Part shown: in pieces, positions 95-8,585 of the stretch
Layout of the letters: each line of letters opens with the position of its first letter
Numbering within the stretch: position 1 is the stretch's first letter
From: an uncultured Bacteroidales bacterium
Lineage (GTDB): Bacteria; Bacteroidota; Bacteroidia; Bacteroidales; UBA932
Direction: 5' to 3'
Assembly: GCA_946617545.1 (NCBI GenBank)
Contig: CAMOKK010000048.1
Location: 1 to 8,824 of the forward strand
DNA: 8,824 nt
Notes under the pieces: generated by a model
What the model was told of the DNA's origin: nothing
Databases searched by the model: none
The model's input: only the letters and a program-made list of their open reading frames with translations
Made by a program: the position numbers and the translations under genes

Positions 95-1654
95 CTACAA
101 ATCCAGGATATTCCGGCGGTCCAGAAAGCGGTAGCTGGCGGCTTCGGAAAGGTGTTCCGGTGCAATGTGCTCGCTGCCTGCGAGGTCTGCGATGGTGCGG
201 GCAATCTTGACGATGCGGGTATAGGCCCGGGCGCTCAGGCCCAGTTTGTCTATCAGCCTCTCCAACAGTTGTTTACAGTCCTCGTTCAGGGGGCAGAAAC
301 GCTCCATCTGCTTGGAAGACATCTCCGCGTTGGTGAAGATGCCGCTGCCTTCCAGCCGTTTCCGCTGGATTTCCCGGGCCGCCAGCACCCGCCGGGCAAT
401 ATCGGCCGATGGTTCCGCCTTTCCCCCTCTCACCAGCGCCGTGGTCTGTACCGGATGCACCCAAATCTGGATGTCTATCCGGTCCATGATGGGGCCGGAG
501 AGCTTGGAGAGATAGGCCAGGCGCTGGCCGGGGGTGCAGGTGCAGCGGTCGCCTTCCCCGTAGTAGCCGCAGGGGCAGGGGTTGGAGGCCGCCACCAGCA
601 TGAAGGAGGCCGGGTATTCTATCTTGGCCTTGAGCCGGGAGATGGTCACGCGCCGGTCTTCCATCGGCCCCCGAAGGGCCTCCAGCGTGCTTTTGGGCGC
701 CTCGCAGAACTCATCGGCAAAAAGAACCCCGCCCGTGGCCAGGGACACCTCCCCGGGCAGGATGTTCTCTCCGCTGCCCCCTCCCAGCATGGCCGCCTTG
801 GAGGCCGATATATGCGGAGCCCGGAAGGGCCGCGTGCGCATGAGCCCCACTCCGCCGCCGGAGCGCCCGGCCACGGAATACACCTTGGAGGTGATGGCGC
901 TCTCTTCCCGCGTCATGGGCGGCAGGATGCCGGCGATGGCCTTGGCTATGGAGCTCTTCCCGCTGCCCGGGGCTCCCACCATGAGCACGTTGTGCCCGCC
1001 GGCGCAGGCAATTTCCACCCCTCTTTTGGCCCCCTCCTGGCCGATGATATCGGCAAAATCCATGTAGGAGGCCGGACGGGTGTCCTGCTCCCGCAGCGCC
1101 CTCCCGTAGGCTTCGCTGTTCCAAATCAGCAGGTCGGAGACGTCCTCGCTGCCGCTCAGGATGCGGAGCACGTCGTCCAGGGTGTTCACCCCAAACAGCA
1201 ACTGCTCCGTGTAATCCACGGCTTCCAGGGCGCTCACCAGCGGCAGGATGCAGCCCTTCAGTCCCTGCCGGGCAGCCAGTTCCACCATGGGCAGGGCTCC
1301 GCTCACCGCCCGCACGCTGCCGTCCAGCCCCAGTTCGCCCATGATAAGATAGTTCTCCAGTTCCGGAAGATGATGCTGGCCGGAGGCCGCGATAATCCCT
1401 AGCGCGATAGGGATGTCGTAGCCGCTTCCCTGCTTGTGCATATCGGCCGGGGCCAGGTTAATCACAATCTTCTTCCCGGGCACGTGGAAGCCCTTGGCCT
1501 GCAGGGCGGTTACCGTTCGCAGGAGGCTTTCCTTTACGGCGGCATCGGCCAAGCCTCCCAGGTGGATGCCCACCCCCAGGGTAATGTCAATCTCTATGGT
1601 TACGGGCACGGCTTCAATGCCCACGCACTTGGCGCCATGAATGTTTACCATCAT
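95..1654 (-). CDS. yifB: YifB/ComM-family Mg-chelatase-like AAA+ ATPase
   Basis: 519 aa, the usual length for the family. Seen: an N-terminal ChlI/Lon-like domain (about 20-140) with the family pattern 'INLAPAD...GSGYDIPIALGI' (65-87); then the AAA+ Mg-chelatase domain (about 195-395) with Walker A GAPGSGKS at 227-234, a Walker B-like VLFADE at 310-315, the four-cysteine motif NPCPCG (358-363) plus C371/C373, and 'GPIMDRID' (387-394) carrying the likely arginine finger; then a C-terminal helical domain (about 410-505) with the sensor-2-like 'SARAYTRIVKIARTIADL'. Known: ComM of Vibrio is a hexameric helicase that drives branch migration during integration of incoming DNA; the role in bacteria not known to be naturally transformable is unclear. 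Two ATGs are adjacent (1654-1652 and 1651-1649). The first overlaps the stop of the upstream lipoprotein gene by one base (TAATG), suggesting translational coupling. Oddity: the Walker B core is F-A-D-E where most relatives I recall have F-L/M-D-E. Confidence 0.93.
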   Translation of the reverse strand: MMVNIHGAKCVGIEAVPVTIEIDITLGVGIHLGGLADAAVKESLLRTVTALQAKGFHVPGKKIVINLAPADMHKQGSGYDIPIALGIIAASGQHHLPELENYLIMGELGLDGSVRAVSGALPMVELAARQGLKGCILPLVSALEAVDYTEQLLFGVNTLDDVLRILSGSEDVSDLLIWNSEAYGRALREQDTRPASYMDFADIIGQEGAKRGVEIACAGGHNVLMVGAPGSGKSSIAKAIAGILPPMTREESAITSKVYSVAGRSGGGVGLMRTRPFRAPHISASKAAMLGGGSGENILPGEVSLATGGVLFADEFCEAPKSTLEALRGPMEDRRVTISRLKAKIEYPASFMLVAASNPCPCGYYGEGDRCTCTPGQRLAYLSKLSGPIMDRIDIQIWVHPVQTTALVRGGKAEPSADIARRVLAAREIQRKRLEGSGIFTNAEMSSKQMERFCPLNEDCKQLLERLIDKLGLSARAYTRIVKIARTIADLAGSEHIAPEHLSEAASYRFLDRRNILDL

Positions 1655-2892
1655 TATTTCAGTTTTACAGAGGTAAAATAACCGTTGAAAGAGTAGGCCA
1701 GGGCCTTCCCGTCATAGACCACCGTGTGCTTGCTTCCGCCACGGCCGCTTAGGGCGGCGGCGTAATGCCCGTCCTTGTAAAAAAGGCACTGGGGCGTAGC
1801 CAGGTAATACGTTCCCTCCGGCAAGTCCAGCTTTTCCCCGGAGAGCCGGAGGCTGCCGATGCTGCCGTCGGCCGCGGTGTCGGCAAACAGCCAGCCGTCT
1901 TCCTGCAGCACCATCCCGCTTCGGGCCGATTTTCCCGAAATCCGGTTCCGGATACCCGGTATGGAAGTGTCGAAATACCAGAACAGAAAGTCTGTGGAGG
2001 AAGTCCGGCTGATGCCCCGAAGAACCACATCGGCCCCGAAGGGAACCAGTTTGCAGGATATCACCAGGTTGCCGGCGGCGTTGAGGGCTTGCTCCTTTTC
2101 TCCTGTTTTCAGGTAGTAGACATCGCCTTTGCGGTAGGCCTGGAGCACCTCGCCTTCTTTCACGCGGAAATCGTAGAAGGCATCGGCATCGCGTTCGAAG
2201 ACCACCTTGTGGTATTTGGAGTCCTGCATGACGTAGTAGTTTCCGTCGGCCTTGTAGGTGTAATACACCCAGTCCCCGTCCGGGGTGAGGGCGCCGCTTT
2301 CCCATTCCGGGTCTGAAGGGCTGCCCAGCACGGTGCCTGTGGTGGAGGAAAACACCTCACGGCCGTTTATCCTGTAGCACAGGCCCTCCCGGCCGGGGCG
2401 CTGGCCCAGCGTATGCACTTCGCCATTCTTGATCAGGAAGCCCCTCAACTGCTCCTGCCCGTCGTAGCAGAACACTTCCTCTCCGTCCCTGGACACCCGC
2501 GTCACGAAGCCGTCCGTGGCATCCGTCCACAGCTGTCCGTCCCAAATCCGGTGCCTCTCCGGGTCCGGCGGCGTTTCCACCGGAAGGCGCAGCAGGAGTT
2601 CATCATCCTTGAAAAAGAGCAGCTCGGCCGCTCCGAGCGAGTCTGTCTCCCAGTTTTCCGTATCCGTATAATGGAAGGCCGTCACATAGACGGAAGGGTC
2701 TGGCGGGGCTGGCGGCTCCTCTGGCGAGGACGACTGCGAAGAATCCTTCGGCGAGGTCCCGCCCGAAGTCGCGCCATAAGAAGGCAAGGTACGTCCATGC
2801 TCCCTCATATAACGGGGCAGGGAATCAAAAAGAGGATCCCGGCAACTGATGACGGCCGCAAGCAGCAGGCCGATGGCAAGTAATCTTTTCAT
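1654..2892 (-). CDS. Predicted lipoprotein of unknown function
   Basis: 412 aa from the ATG at 2892-2890. I do not recognise the family. Seen: a lipoprotein signal, MKRLLAIGLLLAAVISC, with C17 as the predicted lipidated residue (V-I-S-C lipobox) followed by R-D; then a low-complexity Ser/Pro/Glu tether (about 42-68); then about 340 residues rich in Tyr, Asp and Gly, with many short beta-like stretches broken by D-G or N-G turns ('TPDGDWVYYTYKADGNYYVM', 'YRKGDVYYLKTGEKE', 'LFYKDGHYAAAL'). That pattern resembles WD/PQQ-type beta-propeller or beta-sandwich surface proteins, but no catalytic motif is visible. The frame stays open up to a TTG at 2916, but starting at 2892 puts the basic-hydrophobic signal at the very N-terminus. 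Its TAA stop overlaps the ATG of yifB (TAATG), so the two are probably co-transcribed, although the functions have no obvious link. It is divergent from ispE across a 125-base AT-rich region. Confidence 0.8.
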   Translation of the reverse strand: MKRLLAIGLLLAAVISCRDPLFDSLPRYMREHGRTLPSYGATSGGTSPKDSSQSSSPEEPPAPPDPSVYVTAFHYTDTENWETDSLGAAELLFFKDDELLLRLPVETPPDPERHRIWDGQLWTDATDGFVTRVSRDGEEVFCYDGQEQLRGFLIKNGEVHTLGQRPGREGLCYRINGREVFSSTTGTVLGSPSDPEWESGALTPDGDWVYYTYKADGNYYVMQDSKYHKVVFERDADAFYDFRVKEGEVLQAYRKGDVYYLKTGEKEQALNAAGNLVISCKLVPFGADVVLRGISRTSSTDFLFWYFDTSIPGIRNRISGKSARSGMVLQEDGWLFADTAADGSIGSLRLSGEKLDLPEGTYYLATPQCLFYKDGHYAAALSGRGGSKHTVVYDGKALAYSFNGYFTSVKLK

Positions 2893-2978
2893 AGCACACA
2901 CTTTTTGCTCCGGCAAGGTGGGAAAAGACTCCGGGAATTCCTACAATCGTAAAAAAAGTTGTGTTGTTTTACATGCTT

Positions 2979-3012
2979 TTTGTGTGTTTTAACCGATTTT
3001 TGATTAAGTTTG
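2979..3012 (+). promoter_or_regulatory. Probable ispE promoter (TTTG / TAAGTTTG)
   Basis: The sequence TAAGTTTG at 3005-3012 matches the Bacteroidota -7 consensus TAnnTTTG. A possible -33 TTTG lies at 2979-2982, with a spacer of 22 bases, slightly long. Only five bases (TGACC) separate the element from the ATG of ispE at 3018, so the mRNA would be leaderless or nearly so. The element lies in the AT-rich part of the divergent region shared with the lipoprotein gene, whose own promoter I could not identify with confidence. Confidence 0.55.
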
Positions 3013-3017
3013 TGACC

Positions 3018-3851
3018 ATGATTTGCATGCCCAACGTCAAAATCAACCTGGGACTCAACGTCCTGGAAAAACGGCCCGACGGCTTCCACAATCTGGAAAC
3101 CCTCTTTGTCCCGTACCCCGGAATCGCAGACCGCCTGGAGATTGTCACCGGAGAAGACTTCAGCCGCACCCTATCCTCCCTGCAGGAGCGTTATGCCTCC
3201 CTCACCCAGGCCATATCGGCCGACGGGAAGCTCATGATTACCCTGGCCCGGAAGGAGGGGGTGGACTGGGACCCGCTGAAAGACCTTACGGCCAAGGCCT
3301 ATTTCCTGCTCTCGGAAGATTTTGACCTCCCGCCCATGAAGATTTACCTGGAAAAGCTGTCTCCGGTGGGGGCGGGCCTGGGAGGAGGCTCCTCGGACGC
3401 CGCCTTCGCCCTTCGCGCCATGGCGGAGCTCTCCGGCCTGAACCTTTCCGATGAAACCCTGGCGGCCTATGCCGCCCGCCTGGGCAGCGACTGCGCCTTC
3501 TTCGTGTACAACCGCCCCATGTTCGGAAGCGGCCGCGGAGAGGTGCTGGAGCCTTATGAACTGAATTTGGAGGCGTATCGGATAGAAGTGGTGATTCCGG
3601 AGGGCATAGCCGTCTCCACGGCCGACGCCTACCGCGGCATAGAGCCGCACCGCCCGGAAAAACCGCTCCGGGAAGTGCTCTCGCAGCCGGTTTCCACCTG
3701 GGAAGAAGAGCTGAAGAACGATTTTGAAAAGACCGTTTTCGCCCGTTATCCGGCCTTGGCGCAGGTGAAGGAGAGTTTGTATGAGCGCGGTGCCGTGTAT
3801 GCCGCCATGTCCGGCAGCGGCAGCGCCTGCTTCGGGATATTTCCCCGTTAG
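3018..3851 (+). CDS. ispE: 4-diphosphocytidyl-2-C-methyl-D-erythritol kinase
   Basis: 277 aa, normal for IspE. It is the cytosolic GHMP kinase of the MEP (non-mevalonate) isoprenoid pathway, phosphorylating CDP-methylerythritol with ATP. Seen: 'PNVKINLGLNVLEKRPDGFHNLETLF' at 5-30 with the conserved Lys8 and the substrate-site 'RPDG(F/Y)H'; the glycine/serine-rich ATP loop PVGAGLGGGSSDAAFAL at 116-132; 'GSDCAFF' at 156-162 with the expected catalytic Asp157; and the third GHMP motif 'AAMSGSGSACFGIF' at 262-275. The frame is open back to a GTG at 2961, but those extra residues are hydrophobic and come from the AT-rich promoter region. The ATG at 3018 gives the family N-terminus (M-I-x-x-P-N-x-K-I-N-L-G) and follows a TAnnTTTG element. 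A second ATG at 3027 is less likely. The stop TAG (3849-3851) overlaps the convergent envC stop. Confidence 0.96.
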   Translation: MICMPNVKINLGLNVLEKRPDGFHNLETLFVPYPGIADRLEIVTGEDFSRTLSSLQERYASLTQAISADGKLMITLARKEGVDWDPLKDLTAKAYFLLSEDFDLPPMKIYLEKLSPVGAGLGGGSSDAAFALRAMAELSGLNLSDETLAAYAARLGSDCAFFVYNRPMFGSGRGEVLEPYELNLEAYRIEVVIPEGIAVSTADAYRGIEPHRPEKPLREVLSQPVSTWEEELKNDFEKTVFARYPALAQVKESLYERGAVYAAMSGSGSACFGIFPR

Positions 3852-5059
3852 TTCTTCAACCAGTTTTCGGGGTTCTGGGGCGTAGAGCCCTTCCAGAGCT
3901 CGAAGTGGAAGAGGTCTTCTCCGCCAATGGTGTCCACCGTGCCCACCACCTGGCCCACGGTAATCTTCTGGCCGGCTTTCACGGAAACGGATTTGAGCTT
4001 ACTGTACAGGGTGAAATACTCCCCGTGGTTCACCAGTACGCACTGGTTGTAGCCGGGCAGCACCACAACCTGCGATACGGTGCCGTTAAAGACGGCTTTG
4101 GCCTGGGCGCCGTGCTTTACCACCAGCGTGACGCCGTTGTTCTGGGGCAGCTGGACATTTTTATAGACGGGGTGGCTGTGTTTGCCGAAGCGTTCCATTA
4201 TGGTGCCCTCCACCGGCCAGGGGAGTCGGCCCTTGTTGGCGGCAAACTCGTTGGAAAGTTTGGTGTCCACGGCGGTCGAGGTGGTCTTGGAGCCGCCTCC
4301 CGTGGTCTTTTTGCCGGAGCCGCCCTGCTGTTTCCTGGTCTGCTGGCGGATGAGCTCCGCAATCTTGCGGTTCAGCTCTTCCTTCTGCCGGTTCTTCTCC
4401 TTGAGCTGTTTCTCGTAGGTGCGGCGGTCTTTCTTGAGCTGCGTCACCAGCTTGGAGGCGTCTCCTTCCTCGCTCTGGAGCTGCGAACGCTCGCTCACCA
4501 CCTTCTTTCGGGTTTCGTTCACCTGCGCCTTGAGCTTGTTCAAGCGTTGTTTTTGCGCTTCCAGCTGGGCCGATGCCTCCCGCAGTTTGAGCGCCTCCGC
4601 GCTCATCTGCGTGGAAAGGTTGCGGAAGTAGTCAAAACGGTTGAAGGCCTGCCCCATGGAGTCACTGGACAGGATATACATATACCACAGGCGGGTGTCC
4701 CGGTTCTTGTAGGCGCCCCTCACCAGGCGGGAATAATAGAGGGAAAGGGTATCGTGCCGGGCCTGCAGGCGGCCCAGTTCCTTCTGGCACAGGTACAGCG
4801 AGTCGTTCAGCTCTTTGAGCTGCTTGTCATAAGTGGCGATGAGCTGCTCCCGGGCATTGATTTTCCGTCTTACCAGGGTAAGGCTGCTCAGGACTTTGTT
4901 GCTGTTTTTGATGTTCTGGTCCAGCTGGCGGTTCAGGATTTTGATGTCGTTCTCCAACTGGGCACGCAGAGACTCCAGGCGTTTGACCGAAGAGCTTTGT
5001 GCTCCGGCGCTCAGGGCCGTGAGGACGGCTACCAGCACTATGCAGAGGACTTTCTTCAC
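3848..5059 (-). CDS. envC: EnvC-like murein hydrolase activator (coiled coil plus degenerate LytM/M23 domain)
   Basis: 403 aa. Seen: a signal peptide (about 1-20, cleavage likely at SAGA-Q); long Lys/Glu/Gln/Leu-rich coiled coil (about 22-120 and 150-243) around a short 'RGAYKNRDTRLWYMYILSS' segment typical of EnvC relatives; a Gly/Ser/Lys/Thr linker (246-263); and a C-terminal LytM domain (about 278-400) with 'GTIMERFGKHSHPVYKN' and 'GYNQCVLVNHGEYFTLYSKL'. The zinc-site residues of active M23 peptidases look replaced: the HxxxD position reads N307...T311, the Y-x-H position reads Y352-S-K354, and the HxH position reads L383-F-H385. Known: E. coli EnvC has a non-catalytic LytM domain that activates cell-wall amidases during division. 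Inference: this protein is likewise an activator or scaffold in the periplasm. The start is GTG at 5059-5057, overlapping the TGA of the upstream TPR gene (GTGA), which suggests coupled translation. Confidence 0.88.
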   Translation of the reverse strand: MKKVLCIVLVAVLTALSAGAQSSSVKRLESLRAQLENDIKILNRQLDQNIKNSNKVLSSLTLVRRKINAREQLIATYDKQLKELNDSLYLCQKELGRLQARHDTLSLYYSRLVRGAYKNRDTRLWYMYILSSDSMGQAFNRFDYFRNLSTQMSAEALKLREASAQLEAQKQRLNKLKAQVNETRKKVVSERSQLQSEEGDASKLVTQLKKDRRTYEKQLKEKNRQKEELNRKIAELIRQQTRKQQGGSGKKTTGGGSKTTSTAVDTKLSNEFAANKGRLPWPVEGTIMERFGKHSHPVYKNVQLPQNNGVTLVVKHGAQAKAVFNGTVSQVVVLPGYNQCVLVNHGEYFTLYSKLKSVSVKAGQKITVGQVVGTVDTIGGEDLFHFELWKGSTPQNPENWLKN

Positions 5060-6690
5060 TCGTTGTCGGGTTCCAGGCGGGCGGCCTGGTTTCTATAAAT
5101 CTTGGCGCTTTCGCTTTCTCCCAGGGCCTCCAGCACCGTGGCGTAGTGCCGCAGAATCACGGCGCTGTCCTTGCCGCCGTACAGCATGGCGTGCTTGAAG
5201 AAAGGCTTGGCTTCCAAGTCTTTCCCCATCAGGTGCAGAATCCAGGCGAAGGTGTCCAGGTAGGTGGCGTTGTCGGGTTCCTGTTCCACCGTCTTCTTGG
5301 ACATGTTGTAGGCCTTCTTGAGCTTTTTCCCTTCCAGGCTCAGGTAGTAGGCGTAGTTGTTGAGCACCGGGGCGTAGTCCGGATTCAGCTTGAGGGCCTT
5401 CTCGTAGGTCTTGAAGGCACTGCGGGAATCTCCCTTGGAGTGGTAGGCGTCTCCCAGCTGGCTCAGGGCGTTCACCCGCAGGTCTTTGTCCTTGGGGTAG
5501 GCGGAGAGGATGTATTCGCTGTTCCGGATAATGCCGTCGTAGTCTTTCAGTTCGTAGCAGGCCAGGGAGGCATAGTCCAGGAAGGCCAGCTCTCCAAAAC
5601 GCTTGAAGGCATCCATGGACCGTTCCCGCAGGGGCTCCCACTGCTTCTGAAGCTGGAGATACTGCACGTAGGTGGCGGTCTGGCTCAGGCTTTCGGGGTA
5701 CAAATCGGCATTCTTTTGGAACCATTTTTCGGCTTCCTCCGTCCTTCCTGTCGTATAAAAATAAGAGCCGACGGTGGAGAGCATGGTGCTGTCCGTAGGG
5801 TGGGCGTTTGCAGCCATGACGGCCAGGGAGTCGAAGCCGGAGCGGTGAATCTGGAGAATCTTGGGGTCCAGGGAGCGGGTAAGGTTGCCGATATACATGC
5901 TCTTGGTAGAGGCCGGAATGTCTTCCGAATGGAAGAAGGGCTCCAGCGTCCGGAAATACTCCTTGTAGCGGCGTCCCCGGCGGAACACCTCCGACTTGCC
6001 CAGCACGGCGGGCATGTAGGCGCTGTCTATCTCCAGGGCCTCCTCATAGCGCACCAGGGCCAGGGAATCCCTGAAATCGGCCAGATAATAATCTCCCAGC
6101 ATGGACAGGACGGAGGGGACGGAGTACTGCTCGTTGAATTTTTCCAGCAGGGCGGCACCCTCGTCCTGGCGGCCCATGGCGGTATAGACGTCGTAGCGGG
6201 TGCGCACCACCTCTTCCGAGAGCCCGCGGAGCTTTTCAATCTCGTCCAGGGCCTTCAGGGCCTTTTCGTATTTCTGGTTCTTGAGGTACAGGTCCAGCAC
6301 TTCGTAAAGGGCCCCGTCGTTGTCAGGGAAGTCCTTCACCATGCTCTCATACAGCGCAATGCCCTGTTCCGGAAGGTTCTGCAGCACCCTGAGCCGGGCC
6401 TGGGTGCGGCGGTACCAATAATTGGTGCTGTCTATGGCCACGGCCTTCGAATTGGCCTCGACGGCCTCTTCCAGCTTTCTTTCTTTCAAGGCCGACAAAG
6501 CCAGGTAGTACCATACGGCGTCGTTCTCCGGCTGGGCCACGGAAAGGGTTTTGAGCAGTTCGCGGGCCTGTTTGTTCTGCCCGTTGCTGTACAGGGTGAC
6601 GGCATCGATGAGGTTGGCCTCCACCTCCTGCGCGGAGGCGCAGAAGACGGGAAGGCAGCAAAGGCATATAAAGATGAGAAGTTTTCTCAT
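5056..6690 (-). CDS. Secreted tetratricopeptide-repeat (TPR) protein
   Basis: 544 aa. Seen: a Sec signal peptide, MRKLLIFICLCCLPVFCASA, with cleavage likely before Q21, so a periplasmic protein; a lipobox is not convincing because the cysteines lack a proper L-x-G/A-C context. The rest is alpha-helical TPR-like repeats. The clearest lies at 411-440 ('LGDAYHSKGDSRSAFKTYEKALKLNPDYA'), followed by 441-474, 475-508 and a final one to 544; weaker ones lie at about 24-57, 58-91, 92-125, 126-155, 196-229 and 303-336. TPRs bind partner proteins; no catalytic motif is visible. It is the first gene of a two-gene unit with the EnvC-like protein (GTGA overlap), so a shared role in cell-wall remodelling or envelope assembly is a reasonable inference. 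It has a good Bacteroidota promoter with its -7 element seven bases before the ATG, and it is divergent from the sigma-factor gene. Confidence 0.87.
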   Translation of the reverse strand: MRKLLIFICLCCLPVFCASAQEVEANLIDAVTLYSNGQNKQARELLKTLSVAQPENDAVWYYLALSALKERKLEEAVEANSKAVAIDSTNYWYRRTQARLRVLQNLPEQGIALYESMVKDFPDNDGALYEVLDLYLKNQKYEKALKALDEIEKLRGLSEEVVRTRYDVYTAMGRQDEGAALLEKFNEQYSVPSVLSMLGDYYLADFRDSLALVRYEEALEIDSAYMPAVLGKSEVFRRGRRYKEYFRTLEPFFHSEDIPASTKSMYIGNLTRSLDPKILQIHRSGFDSLAVMAANAHPTDSTMLSTVGSYFYTTGRTEEAEKWFQKNADLYPESLSQTATYVQYLQLQKQWEPLRERSMDAFKRFGELAFLDYASLACYELKDYDGIIRNSEYILSAYPKDKDLRVNALSQLGDAYHSKGDSRSAFKTYEKALKLNPDYAPVLNNYAYYLSLEGKKLKKAYNMSKKTVEQEPDNATYLDTFAWILHLMGKDLEAKPFFKHAMLYGGKDSAVILRHYATVLEALGESESAKIYRNQAARLEPDNE

Positions 6691-6798: not shown

Positions 6799-7395
6799 TT
6801 GAAACGTTTTTGGTCAAAACTGCATCTTATACAGTGGACTTCGGATGAAGATTCACCTTCCGGAGCGTCATCCTTAGAGCGCCTGGCTGCCGCCTGTCTT
6901 GAAGGAGACAGGGCGGGGCAAAGACGCCTCTTCGAGGCCCTGGCACCCAAAATGATGGCAGTTTGCCTGCGTTATATGGGAAAGCGGGAAGACGCGGAGG
7001 ACGTGCTCCAGGAGGGTTTCATCACCCTGTTCACCAAACTTTCCAGCTATGAAGGAAGCGGTTCCTTCGAAGGCTGGGCCAGAAGGATCTTTGTCAACAC
7101 TGCGCTGATGCATCTCAGAAAGACGGATGCCCTGGGCCTGAGCGAAGACATCTCGGAGGCCCGCGGCCTCTTTACACAGGAGGCCACCCCGCTCCAGAAG
7201 ATGGGTTATAAAGAGCTGATGCGGCTTATAGAGGCCCTCCCTCCGGACGCCCGTACCGTCTTCAATATGTATGTAGTGGAAGGGTATTCACACAAGGAAA
7301 TTGCCGATGAACTGGGATGTACGGAAGCCACCTCGCGCTCCAAGCTGCAAAGGGCCAGGCTTCGCCTGCAGGAAATGATAAAAGAAGGAAAATGA
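6799..7395 (+). CDS. ECF-type RNA polymerase sigma factor
   Basis: 198 aa. Seen: sigma-70 region 2 at about 42-108, with 'APKMMAVCLRYMGKREDAEDVLQEGF' (49-74) and 'FEGWARRIFVNTALMHLRK' (90-108, region 2.3/2.4); then a short linker and region 4 at about 139-193, with 'LPPDARTVFNMYVVEGYSHKEIADELG' (147-173) and the recognition helix 'EATSRSKLQRARLRL' (176-190). Domains for regions 1 and 3 are absent, as in ECF factors. The start is TTG at 6799: a stop codon lies in frame at 6778-6780 and the next ATG is inside region 2, so no better start exists; about 28 residues precede the first region 2 helix. Its stop overlaps the start of the next gene (ATGA, 7392-7395), the usual layout of a sigma/anti-sigma pair. 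Inference: it is held inactive by that partner and directs an envelope-related regulon, possibly including its own operon. Confidence 0.92.
   Translation: MKRFWSKLHLIQWTSDEDSPSGASSLERLAAACLEGDRAGQRRLFEALAPKMMAVCLRYMGKREDAEDVLQEGFITLFTKLSSYEGSGSFEGWARRIFVNTALMHLRKTDALGLSEDISEARGLFTQEATPLQKMGYKELMRLIEALPPDARTVFNMYVVEGYSHKEIADELGCTEATSRSKLQRARLRLQEMIKEGK
6806..6820. repeat. Imperfect second copy of the GTTTTGGCCAAAAC palindrome
   Basis: GTTTTTGGTCAAAAC, at codons 3-8 of the sigma-factor gene, resembles the perfect palindrome at 6709-6722, with one inserted T and one C-to-T change. The outer arms GTTTT and AAAAC still pair. The two copies are 97 bases apart, start to start, in the same orientation. 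Because this copy also encodes protein, chance similarity is possible. Confidence 0.25.
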
Positions 7396-8585
7396 CAGAA
7401 CGAGAATTTGACATACAGGTAAGAAATCTCTTACAGGACGCTCAGGAGCCCGTTTCTCCGGAGCTGTGGGAAGGTGTGGCCGCCGGCCTTGCCCGTCGGC
7501 GCCGGGCTGTCATCCTTCGCGTCTGGGGCTCCGTGGCCTCCGTGGCCGCCGCCGCGGCGGTGGCGCTCTTCGTGTTCCTGAGGCCCTCCGCCCCCGTCCT
7601 TGCACCCGAACATTCTAACTATTCTTCAATATTTATGTCTGAGGAATCCGGGGAACCCCTTCTTCCTCAGGAAGAACTTGTAGAGGTACAGGTTCCCCGG
7701 AACATTCCTCGTTTGGCCGCCGCGGCCCCTGTTTCCCAGCCGTCACTGGCATCGCCGCTTCCCGAACCGGAGGTAGACGAGGTTCCGGCCTCCGTACAGA
7801 AGGCTTCGGCCCCTGTTCCGGAAAAAGCGGCTCCGGCCCCCGAAAAGGCCGAATCGGCCCCGGAGGTCAAGGGGGAAGACGTTAATGCGGCGCTTAACCT
7901 GCTGGCCTTCGAGGCCGGAAAATCGGCCAAAAAGAAGGCTGCGGGCTTCTCCATGGCCGCCTTCGGCAATCTTCAAACCAGCCAGCGTGCCGGCATCCAG
8001 GGCGTGTACCGCCGCTATGGCGCTCCGCCCCTTGGCAATCAGGAAGGTATTTACAACGAAAGCCCGGAGGTGAGCTTCAGCCTGCCCTTCTCGGTAGGTG
8101 TGGGCTTCCAGTGGAACCTTTCGCCCAAATGGGCGCTGGGCACCGGCATCCGCTATACCAACCTGCAGCGCACCGTGGTGGGTAATTACAAAGGAGACGG
8201 CTTCTACTTGGAACAGACGGACATAGACAACCGCCAGCACTGGATAGGCGTTCCCGTCAATGTCTATTACAACTTTATCAATAAGGGCCGCTGGAATGTG
8301 CATGCCTTTGCGGGCGGCGGCGTGGAGTGGCTGCTGGACAACCACTACCTCATTCACAACAACCCCTCGGACATTCACTACCACCAGCCCAAGAACGGCA
8401 TTCCGCAATTCTCGGCCGGTGCCGGTCTGGGCGTGGAATTCAAGATTACCCCCGTTGTGGGCCTTTATCTGGACCCCAGCTTCCGTTACTTCTTCGCCAC
8501 GCAGAAGCAGCCGCGCTCCCTGCGCACCGTCCAGCCCCTCCGCTTCGACATAGAGGCCGGCGTGCGCTTCTCCTTCGGGAAGTAA
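7392..8585 (+). CDS. Anti-sigma-like membrane protein with C-terminal outer-membrane beta-barrel domain
   Basis: 397 aa from the ATG at 7392; the frame is open further upstream, but only inside the sigma gene. Seen, in order: a cytoplasmic N-terminus (1-38) with 'EPVSPELWEGVAAGLARRRR', the short acidic/helical pattern with a conserved Trp typical of Bacteroidota anti-sigma-like proteins; one transmembrane helix (about 39-63) preceded by four arginines, predicting N-in orientation; a Pro/Ala/Glu/Val-rich linker (about 64-165); and a C-terminal domain (about 186-397) of alternating amphipathic strands ('FSVGVGFQWNLSPKWALGTGIRYTN', 'NVHAFAGGGVEWLL', 'FSAGAGLGVEF', 'VVGLYLDPSFRYFF', 'FDIEAGVRFSFGK') like the 8-stranded OMP_b-brl/PorT-type barrels. 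The start overlaps the sigma stop by ATGA. Inference: it anchors and inhibits the sigma factor and reports on the outer membrane or periplasm. Oddity: the chain ends F-G-K rather than in an aromatic residue. Confidence 0.82.
   Translation: MTEREFDIQVRNLLQDAQEPVSPELWEGVAAGLARRRRAVILRVWGSVASVAAAAAVALFVFLRPSAPVLAPEHSNYSSIFMSEESGEPLLPQEELVEVQVPRNIPRLAAAAPVSQPSLASPLPEPEVDEVPASVQKASAPVPEKAAPAPEKAESAPEVKGEDVNAALNLLAFEAGKSAKKKAAGFSMAAFGNLQTSQRAGIQGVYRRYGAPPLGNQEGIYNESPEVSFSLPFSVGVGFQWNLSPKWALGTGIRYTNLQRTVVGNYKGDGFYLEQTDIDNRQHWIGVPVNVYYNFINKGRWNVHAFAGGGVEWLLDNHYLIHNNPSDIHYHQPKNGIPQFSAGAGLGVEFKITPVVGLYLDPSFRYFFATQKQPRSLRTVQPLRFDIEAGVRFSFGK

Follow-up and report, generated by a model that had tools for sequence, protein, structure and literature searches.

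A Dma-like protein paired with a sigma factor gene in an uncultured Bacteroidales bacterium, with a candidate two-helix sigma-holding site and a conserved promoter-like motif

The window analysed here is the whole stretch of 8,824 nucleotides of contig CAMOKK010000048.1 (assembly GCA_946617545.1) from an uncultured Bacteroidales bacterium, a relative of Bacteroides. Its forward strand carries a gene for an extracytoplasmic function (ECF) sigma factor, followed by a gene for a 397-residue protein that is very likely a new member of the Dma family, the layout of which is already known. A sequence-only reading of the stretch had proposed that this one chain joins an anti-sigma-like N-terminus, an inner-membrane helix, a long linker, and an outer-membrane barrel, and that its open reading frame (ORF, 7392–8585) is coupled to the sigma gene by ATGA; the overlap is confirmed at 7392–7395. 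The gene pair consists of the following parts.

6799..7395, + strand: ECF sigma factor ORF, listed TTG start doubtful; sigma2 at about 6928–7128, sigma4 at about 7210–7368
7392..7395, + strand: ATGA start/stop overlap of the sigma ORF with the dma-like gene
7392..8585, + strand: dma-like gene, 397 amino acids (anti-sigma domain, inner-membrane helix, linker, and predicted barrel)
7392..7505, + strand: predicted two-helix anti-sigma domain, residues 1–38 (from model helices and couplings to sigma2 and sigma4)
7506..7580, + strand: predicted inner-membrane helix, residues 39–63, with basic residues on its N-terminal side
7581..7871, + strand: linker, residues 64–160, rich in Ala/Pro/Glu/Ser and predicted to be disordered (from composition and model)
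7872..7934, + strand: predicted helix directly ahead of the barrel, residues 161–181 (from the model)
7944..8576, + strand: predicted 8-strand outer-membrane barrel, residues 185–395 (from Pfam, model, and PDB matches)

The longest ORF possible for the dma-like gene begins at 7317, and all 26 sequences aligned, that of the window included, share the Met encoded at 7392. The motif ELWEGV (residues 24–29) and the four arginines (residues 35–38) lie in the N-terminus, as the earlier reading had stated, and the 19-residue segment of highest hydrophobicity begins at residue 44 (mean Kyte–Doolittle value, 2.11). The structure model of the full-length protein contains helices at residues 3–15, 23–62, and 161–181, the last of which adds a C-terminal helix to the proposed linker; from about residue 71 to 160 the predicted local distance difference test score (pLDDT) is 43–50, in keeping with a long disordered segment. 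The barrel, proposed for residues 186–397, is present in the model at residues 185–395, with eight strands of at least 10 residues plus two short strands, and from residue 181 on the mean pLDDT is at least 94 in 14 of 22 ten-residue blocks (lowest, 55, at residues 201–210). Because 312 relatives were found at E ≤ 0.001 (7995 candidates scored) and the helix, linker, and barrel were found again in distant relatives, the architecture is beyond chance.

Across the order, a profile built from 26 close sequences gave matches in 112 of 393 genomes. The survey of sigma-gene linkage that the sequence-only reading had called for covered 89 ORFs (29 loci returned by the profile search and 60 fetched; cut-off E ≤ 2.5e-8, weaker rows left out). 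Of these, 79 have an ECF sigma gene upstream, with a stop codon between −202 and +127 bases relative to the listed start of dma, and in six the sigma gene is fused to dma; among the remaining four, one small gene intervenes in three, and in L052 the dma frame is split right after the sigma gene. One of the 79 (L062) has an in-frame dma limited to the later part. In L038, L042, and L045, a small lipoprotein-like gene was observed between the sigma and dma genes. The set was extended to 209 loci by adding the window, two loci of Bacteroides sp. GM023, 29 class-level, 29 genus-level, and 59 loci from one other family, all loci of the extended set being picked as best matches; it comprises 196 pairs, seven flagged repeats, and six fusions, and no locus of the 209 lacks a same-strand sigma gene within 700 bases. 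The 196 pairs include one unflagged repeat (L086 and L117, the same place, one being shortened) and a genus-level dma split over two frames (L176). As a control, ordinary PF13568 barrels were examined at 30 loci of the own genome and its relatives; a sigma ORF was present at one, beside a Dma-like start of its own. The own genome, a draft with a completeness rating of 57%, yielded no further copies. N-terminal matches of a class-wide search (332 of 395 genomes, E ≤ 1e-5) were not counted as Dma and may reflect composition and the helix. In the six fused relatives, two of which were confirmed with Pfam, sigma4 passes directly into the membrane helix; a search with one of them returned 1712 relatives, and sigma and barrel domains were present in all 120 listed.

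A mean-field coupling analysis of the 196 sigma–Dma pairs (effective number, 152.7) lends support to the proposed anti-sigma role of the N-terminus. The strongest three inter-protein couplings are sigma 183–Dma 7, 75–29, and 54–17. Residues 1–38 make up 37 of 330 columns, yet hold 10 of the top 20, 15 of the top 50, and 27 of the top 100 couplings, and their per-column coupling maxima exceed those of the barrel (Mann–Whitney, p 0.0015). When each Dma was swapped to that of a near sigma neighbour, the same residues held 0 and 5 of the top 20, 9 and 8 of the top 50, and 18 and 16 of the top 100 in two runs, and in 19 random re-pairings 0–5, 1–10, and 3–15, respectively; the top score was 1.21 for the true pairs and at most 1.014 for the random ones. 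An earlier run with 133 pairs had placed 8 of the top 20 and 20 of the top 50 couplings in residues 1–38 (three neighbour runs, 2, 7, and 4 of 20 and 6, 12, and 10 of 50; eight random runs, 1–4 of 20); in a preliminary mutual-information test on 104 pairs, these residues had supplied 6 of the top 20. The coupled sigma positions belong to sigma2 (50–54, 71, and 75) and sigma4 (155 and 183). This comparison of nearly two hundred gene pairs points to the short segment that would grip the sigma factor.

Residues 1–38 have no Pfam match at E ≤ 1, anti-sigma families included. In a published coupling study, helix 1 of the four-helix class I anti-sigma domain (ASDI) contacts sigma4 and helix 4 contacts sigma2, as do the first and last helices of the two-helix, class II CnrY; class I domains, among them the RseA type, neighbour just 6% of Bacteroidetes ECFs (PMC7406223). 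The couplings found here follow the same order. Unlike the class I domain, the window domain is about 38 residues long with two predicted helices, the second of which runs on into the membrane helix in the model, and unlike both CnrY and class I proteins the chain includes a predicted outer-membrane part. We infer that Dma proteins bear a CnrY-like two-helix clamp.

A clear hydrophobic helix is present in 188 of the 196 rows, and basic residues are more numerous before than after it in 182, equal in 13, and fewer in one; the window protein has five Lys/Arg at residues 25–43 versus one at 64–82. Trp26 is conserved in 176 rows. In the 188 rows with a clear helix, the linker is 90–218 residues long (median, 131); the eight rows left out of these statistics include interrupted frames. 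Among 149 close sequences, the mean information per column is 2.72 bits for residues 1–38, 2.55 for the helix, 2.61 for the barrel, and 1.40–1.66 for parts of the linker. An extended chain covers ~0.36 nm per residue and the periplasm is some 20–25 nm wide, so that even the shortest linkers (90 residues) span about 32 nm, sufficient to cross it. Since its length varies, the linker is no ruler.

The C-terminal domain matches the generic barrel families OMP_b-brl_2 (4.2e-10) and OMP_b-brl (6.2e-9) in Pfam, and comparison of the model with the PDB indicates a small barrel similar to OmpA/OprF domains; a sequence search of the PDB gave no relative at E ≤ 0.001 with either the single sequence or a profile. 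That this domain is instead a soluble periplasmic β fold is very improbable: the protein terminates in Gly-Lys past the last strand, with no aromatic end residue, and PsbO is among the lower PDB rows, both of which would suit such a fold, whereas ranks 1–33 are all transmembrane barrels, natural or designed, and three model strands reach 21–28 residues. We give equally little credence to the view that helix 39–63 is cleaved off as a signal peptide and that the protein is a small barrel of the ordinary outer-membrane kind, sharing no more than an operon with the sigma factor. A hydrophobic helix near the N-terminus does look like a signal peptide, and generic barrel families fit an ordinary barrel; however, the 38 residues ahead of the helix are at least as well conserved as the barrel, they coevolve with the sigma factor, six relatives carry the sigma factor itself at that end, and ordinary PF13568 barrels have a sigma ORF beside them in one locus of 30. 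An ordinary protein consisting of a barrel only was also rated low.

The Dma family was reportedly first described in 2024, in the paper that named Dma1. The statement of the sequence-only reading that the mechanism is poorly described is not supported, as the family is in print: a 2026 paper defines Dma by the same four parts, with ECF21 sigma factors encoded alongside, traces the effect of Dma1 to nigD1, and proposes surface glycan sensing for Dma2 (PMC13088901). Bridging of both membranes and control of vesicle production are further traits ascribed to Dma proteins. The window pair shares with Dma1/Das1 and Dma2/Das2 of Bacteroides thetaiotaomicron the anti-sigma N-terminus, transmembrane helix, disordered tether, barrel, and adjacent ECF sigma gene. 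The profile of the window's relatives is homologous to the probable orthologues in GM023, where it gives strong hits at two loci (2e-95 and 2e-58). One strong locus adjoins a NigD-domain gene (NigD_C, 2.2e-32) and fits Dma1, because the Dma1 effect runs via nigD1; the second, followed by DUF4943 and DUF4858 genes, would suit a Dma2 operon with neighbours of unknown function. Aligned with the probable Dma1 of GM023, the window protein shows 26% identity across the barrel (E, 3e-17), pairwise alignment to the putative GM023 orthologues covering the barrel only, and the window sigma factor is 38% identical to the one beside the probable Dma1. In contrast to the GM023 loci, NigD, DUF4943, and DUF4858 are unmatched among the seven scanned window proteins in the Pfam rows shown. 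Weaker profile matches in GM023 (L099–L104; E, 1.8e-5 to 4.9e-4) lie beside other ECF sigma genes. Dma3-type fusions have the helix–linker–barrel body in common with the window protein, but no separate anti-sigma domain is seen in them, sigma4 being continuous with the membrane helix.

Two further systems also deliver envelope signals to ECF sigma factors. In FecR/TonB-receptor signalling, an outer-membrane signal is likewise conveyed, by separate proteins that meet in the periplasm, versus the one chain predicted here; no FecR domain was matched in the window proteins at E ≤ 1 in Pfam and NCBIfam. The RseA/RseP pathway also has a membrane anti-sigma factor for an ECF sigma factor, and an RseP homologue is present in the genome; RseA is not known to have an outer-membrane domain.

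Upstream of the sigma gene, the window carries the exact motif TG(A/C)AAC-N15-TGCATC at 6800–6826, a predicted promoter.

6800..6805, + strand: −35-like element TGAAAC of the conserved ECF-type promoter (predicted)
6821..6826, + strand: −10-like element TGCATC, 15 bases past the −35-like element (predicted)

A dyad TGCA-N19-CATC occurs upstream of sigma genes at 34 of 93 loci, compared with maxima of 8–11 in five shuffles. Among the 189 of 196 loci with enough upstream sequence, the full motif is exact at 28 of 32 in the window's genus and has at most one mismatch at all 32 (shuffled means, 0 and 0.2), and outside the genus at 16 and 25 of 157, respectively; the GM023 pairs, unlike those of the genus, are without it. 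A limited literature search met no related published description. The listed TTG start at 6799, which directly adjoins the motif, is doubtful, because transcription as predicted from the motif would begin downstream of it; the next in-frame ATG, GTG, or TTG is at 6952, within the sigma2 domain, and CTG codons occur at 6820 and 6883. Fourteen genomes of the genus contain 55 exact sites versus six for the reversed pattern, with none in one genome. Of 31 sites inspected, namely that of the window and 30 of the 55, 10 have a sigma gene downstream, and several others fall within long reading frames and might not act as promoters. Ten of 16 other downstream ORFs were scanned (four peptidase M6, one DUF4249, one DUF2807, and four with no match); the peptidase M6 genes following the promoter-like motif are in four other genus genomes (L212, L214, L220, and L231). 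In the own genome, the sigma site alone is exact and the eight one-mismatch sites do not exceed the 16 of the reversed-pattern control, so that no regulon is claimed there.

Taken as a whole, a clamp, inner-membrane helix, linker, and barrel, with transcription of the own operon by the freed sigma factor, are in our judgement highly probable as the best explanation, and the dma-like protein likely holds the sigma factor inactive until a change at the cell surface. From the coevolving positions, helix 1 (residues 7 and 10) would lie over sigma4 close to its recognition helix, and residues 14–18 with helix 2 (residues 29 and 32) would cover sigma2 regions 2.1–2.2, by which both promoter contacts and core-polymerase contacts would be blocked. 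Helix 39–63 is predicted to be retained in the inner membrane with the N-terminus inside, and the linker of ~120 residues to span the periplasm to the 8-strand barrel. A change in the barrel (ligand or failed assembly) may then allow the tether to be cut, after which RseP-type cleavage would release the sigma factor, a step in which our belief and doubt are about balanced; the freed sigma factor would transcribe its own operon, perhaps along with envelope genes. Several observations weigh against this explanation. In the 133-pair run one random top score (0.833) is close to the true one (0.840); the 75–29 pair is weak by itself, because one random re-pairing in the 196-pair analysis ranked it first of the N-terminal pairs; part of the coupling signal is explained by ancestry; and RseP-like proteases are common, control genomes matching as well.

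How the sigma factor would be released is the point at which the alternatives differ. The tether might, under tension or by changing shape, detach the N-terminal domain with no cutting, which we hold to be possible though rather unlikely: one chain would connect both membranes through long linkers (90–218 residues), and PMC13088901 proposes surface glycan sensing; against this, the variable length and sequence of the linker suit a slack tether over a lever, RseP homologues are found in all 14 genus genomes searched (13 above the cut-off, the own genome included), common as such proteases are, and in the fused relatives there is no distinct anti-sigma domain that could be detached. For that last reason we lean, from a nearly even position, toward cutting over simple unbinding. 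The fused relatives would seem to need either cutting or a membrane-bound active state, and together with the RseP homologue in the genome this leaves operation without an RseP-like cascade, which the earlier reading had suggested, not supported. The barrel might also sense its own assembly, an unfolded C-terminus being cut after failed outer-membrane assembly, and serve as a biogenesis alarm and no ligand receptor. Its small size, akin to OmpA/OprF domains, and the position of some genus motif sites ahead of peptidase M6 genes and genes we read as lipoprotein-like speak for this, while the published Dma2 work favours glycan control (PMC13088901); we consider it a minority possibility. Only tentatively do we combine these elements into a minimal two-helix grip of ~38 residues on an inner-membrane helix that would clamp sigma2 and sigma4, with release from the two-membrane tether as the switch, the barrel as an alarm that reports either its own assembly or the state of the surface, and the sigma–barrel fusions as the same device minus the clamp.

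The remaining genes of the window are as follows.

95..1654, − strand: YifB-family Mg-chelatase-like ATPase, housekeeping
1657..2898, − strand: protein of ~414 residues with a lipoprotein-like start and no Pfam/NCBIfam match above the cut-off
2961..3851, + strand: IspE, housekeeping
3848..6690, − strand: TPR (tetratricopeptide)-repeat protein and EnvC-like M23 peptidase protein, the TPR gene starting ~110 bases from the sigma ORF

Outer-membrane signals are normally relayed to RNA polymerase by several proteins, whereas in the Dma family one chain would carry them. The mechanism idea itself is already in print; new here are the family-wide linkage, the coupling evidence for the sigma-holding site, and the conserved promoter motif. 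The arrangement occurs throughout the order and in a large genus known from draft genomes, and the residue pairs, the promoter motif, and the fused relatives make grip, output, and release directly testable.
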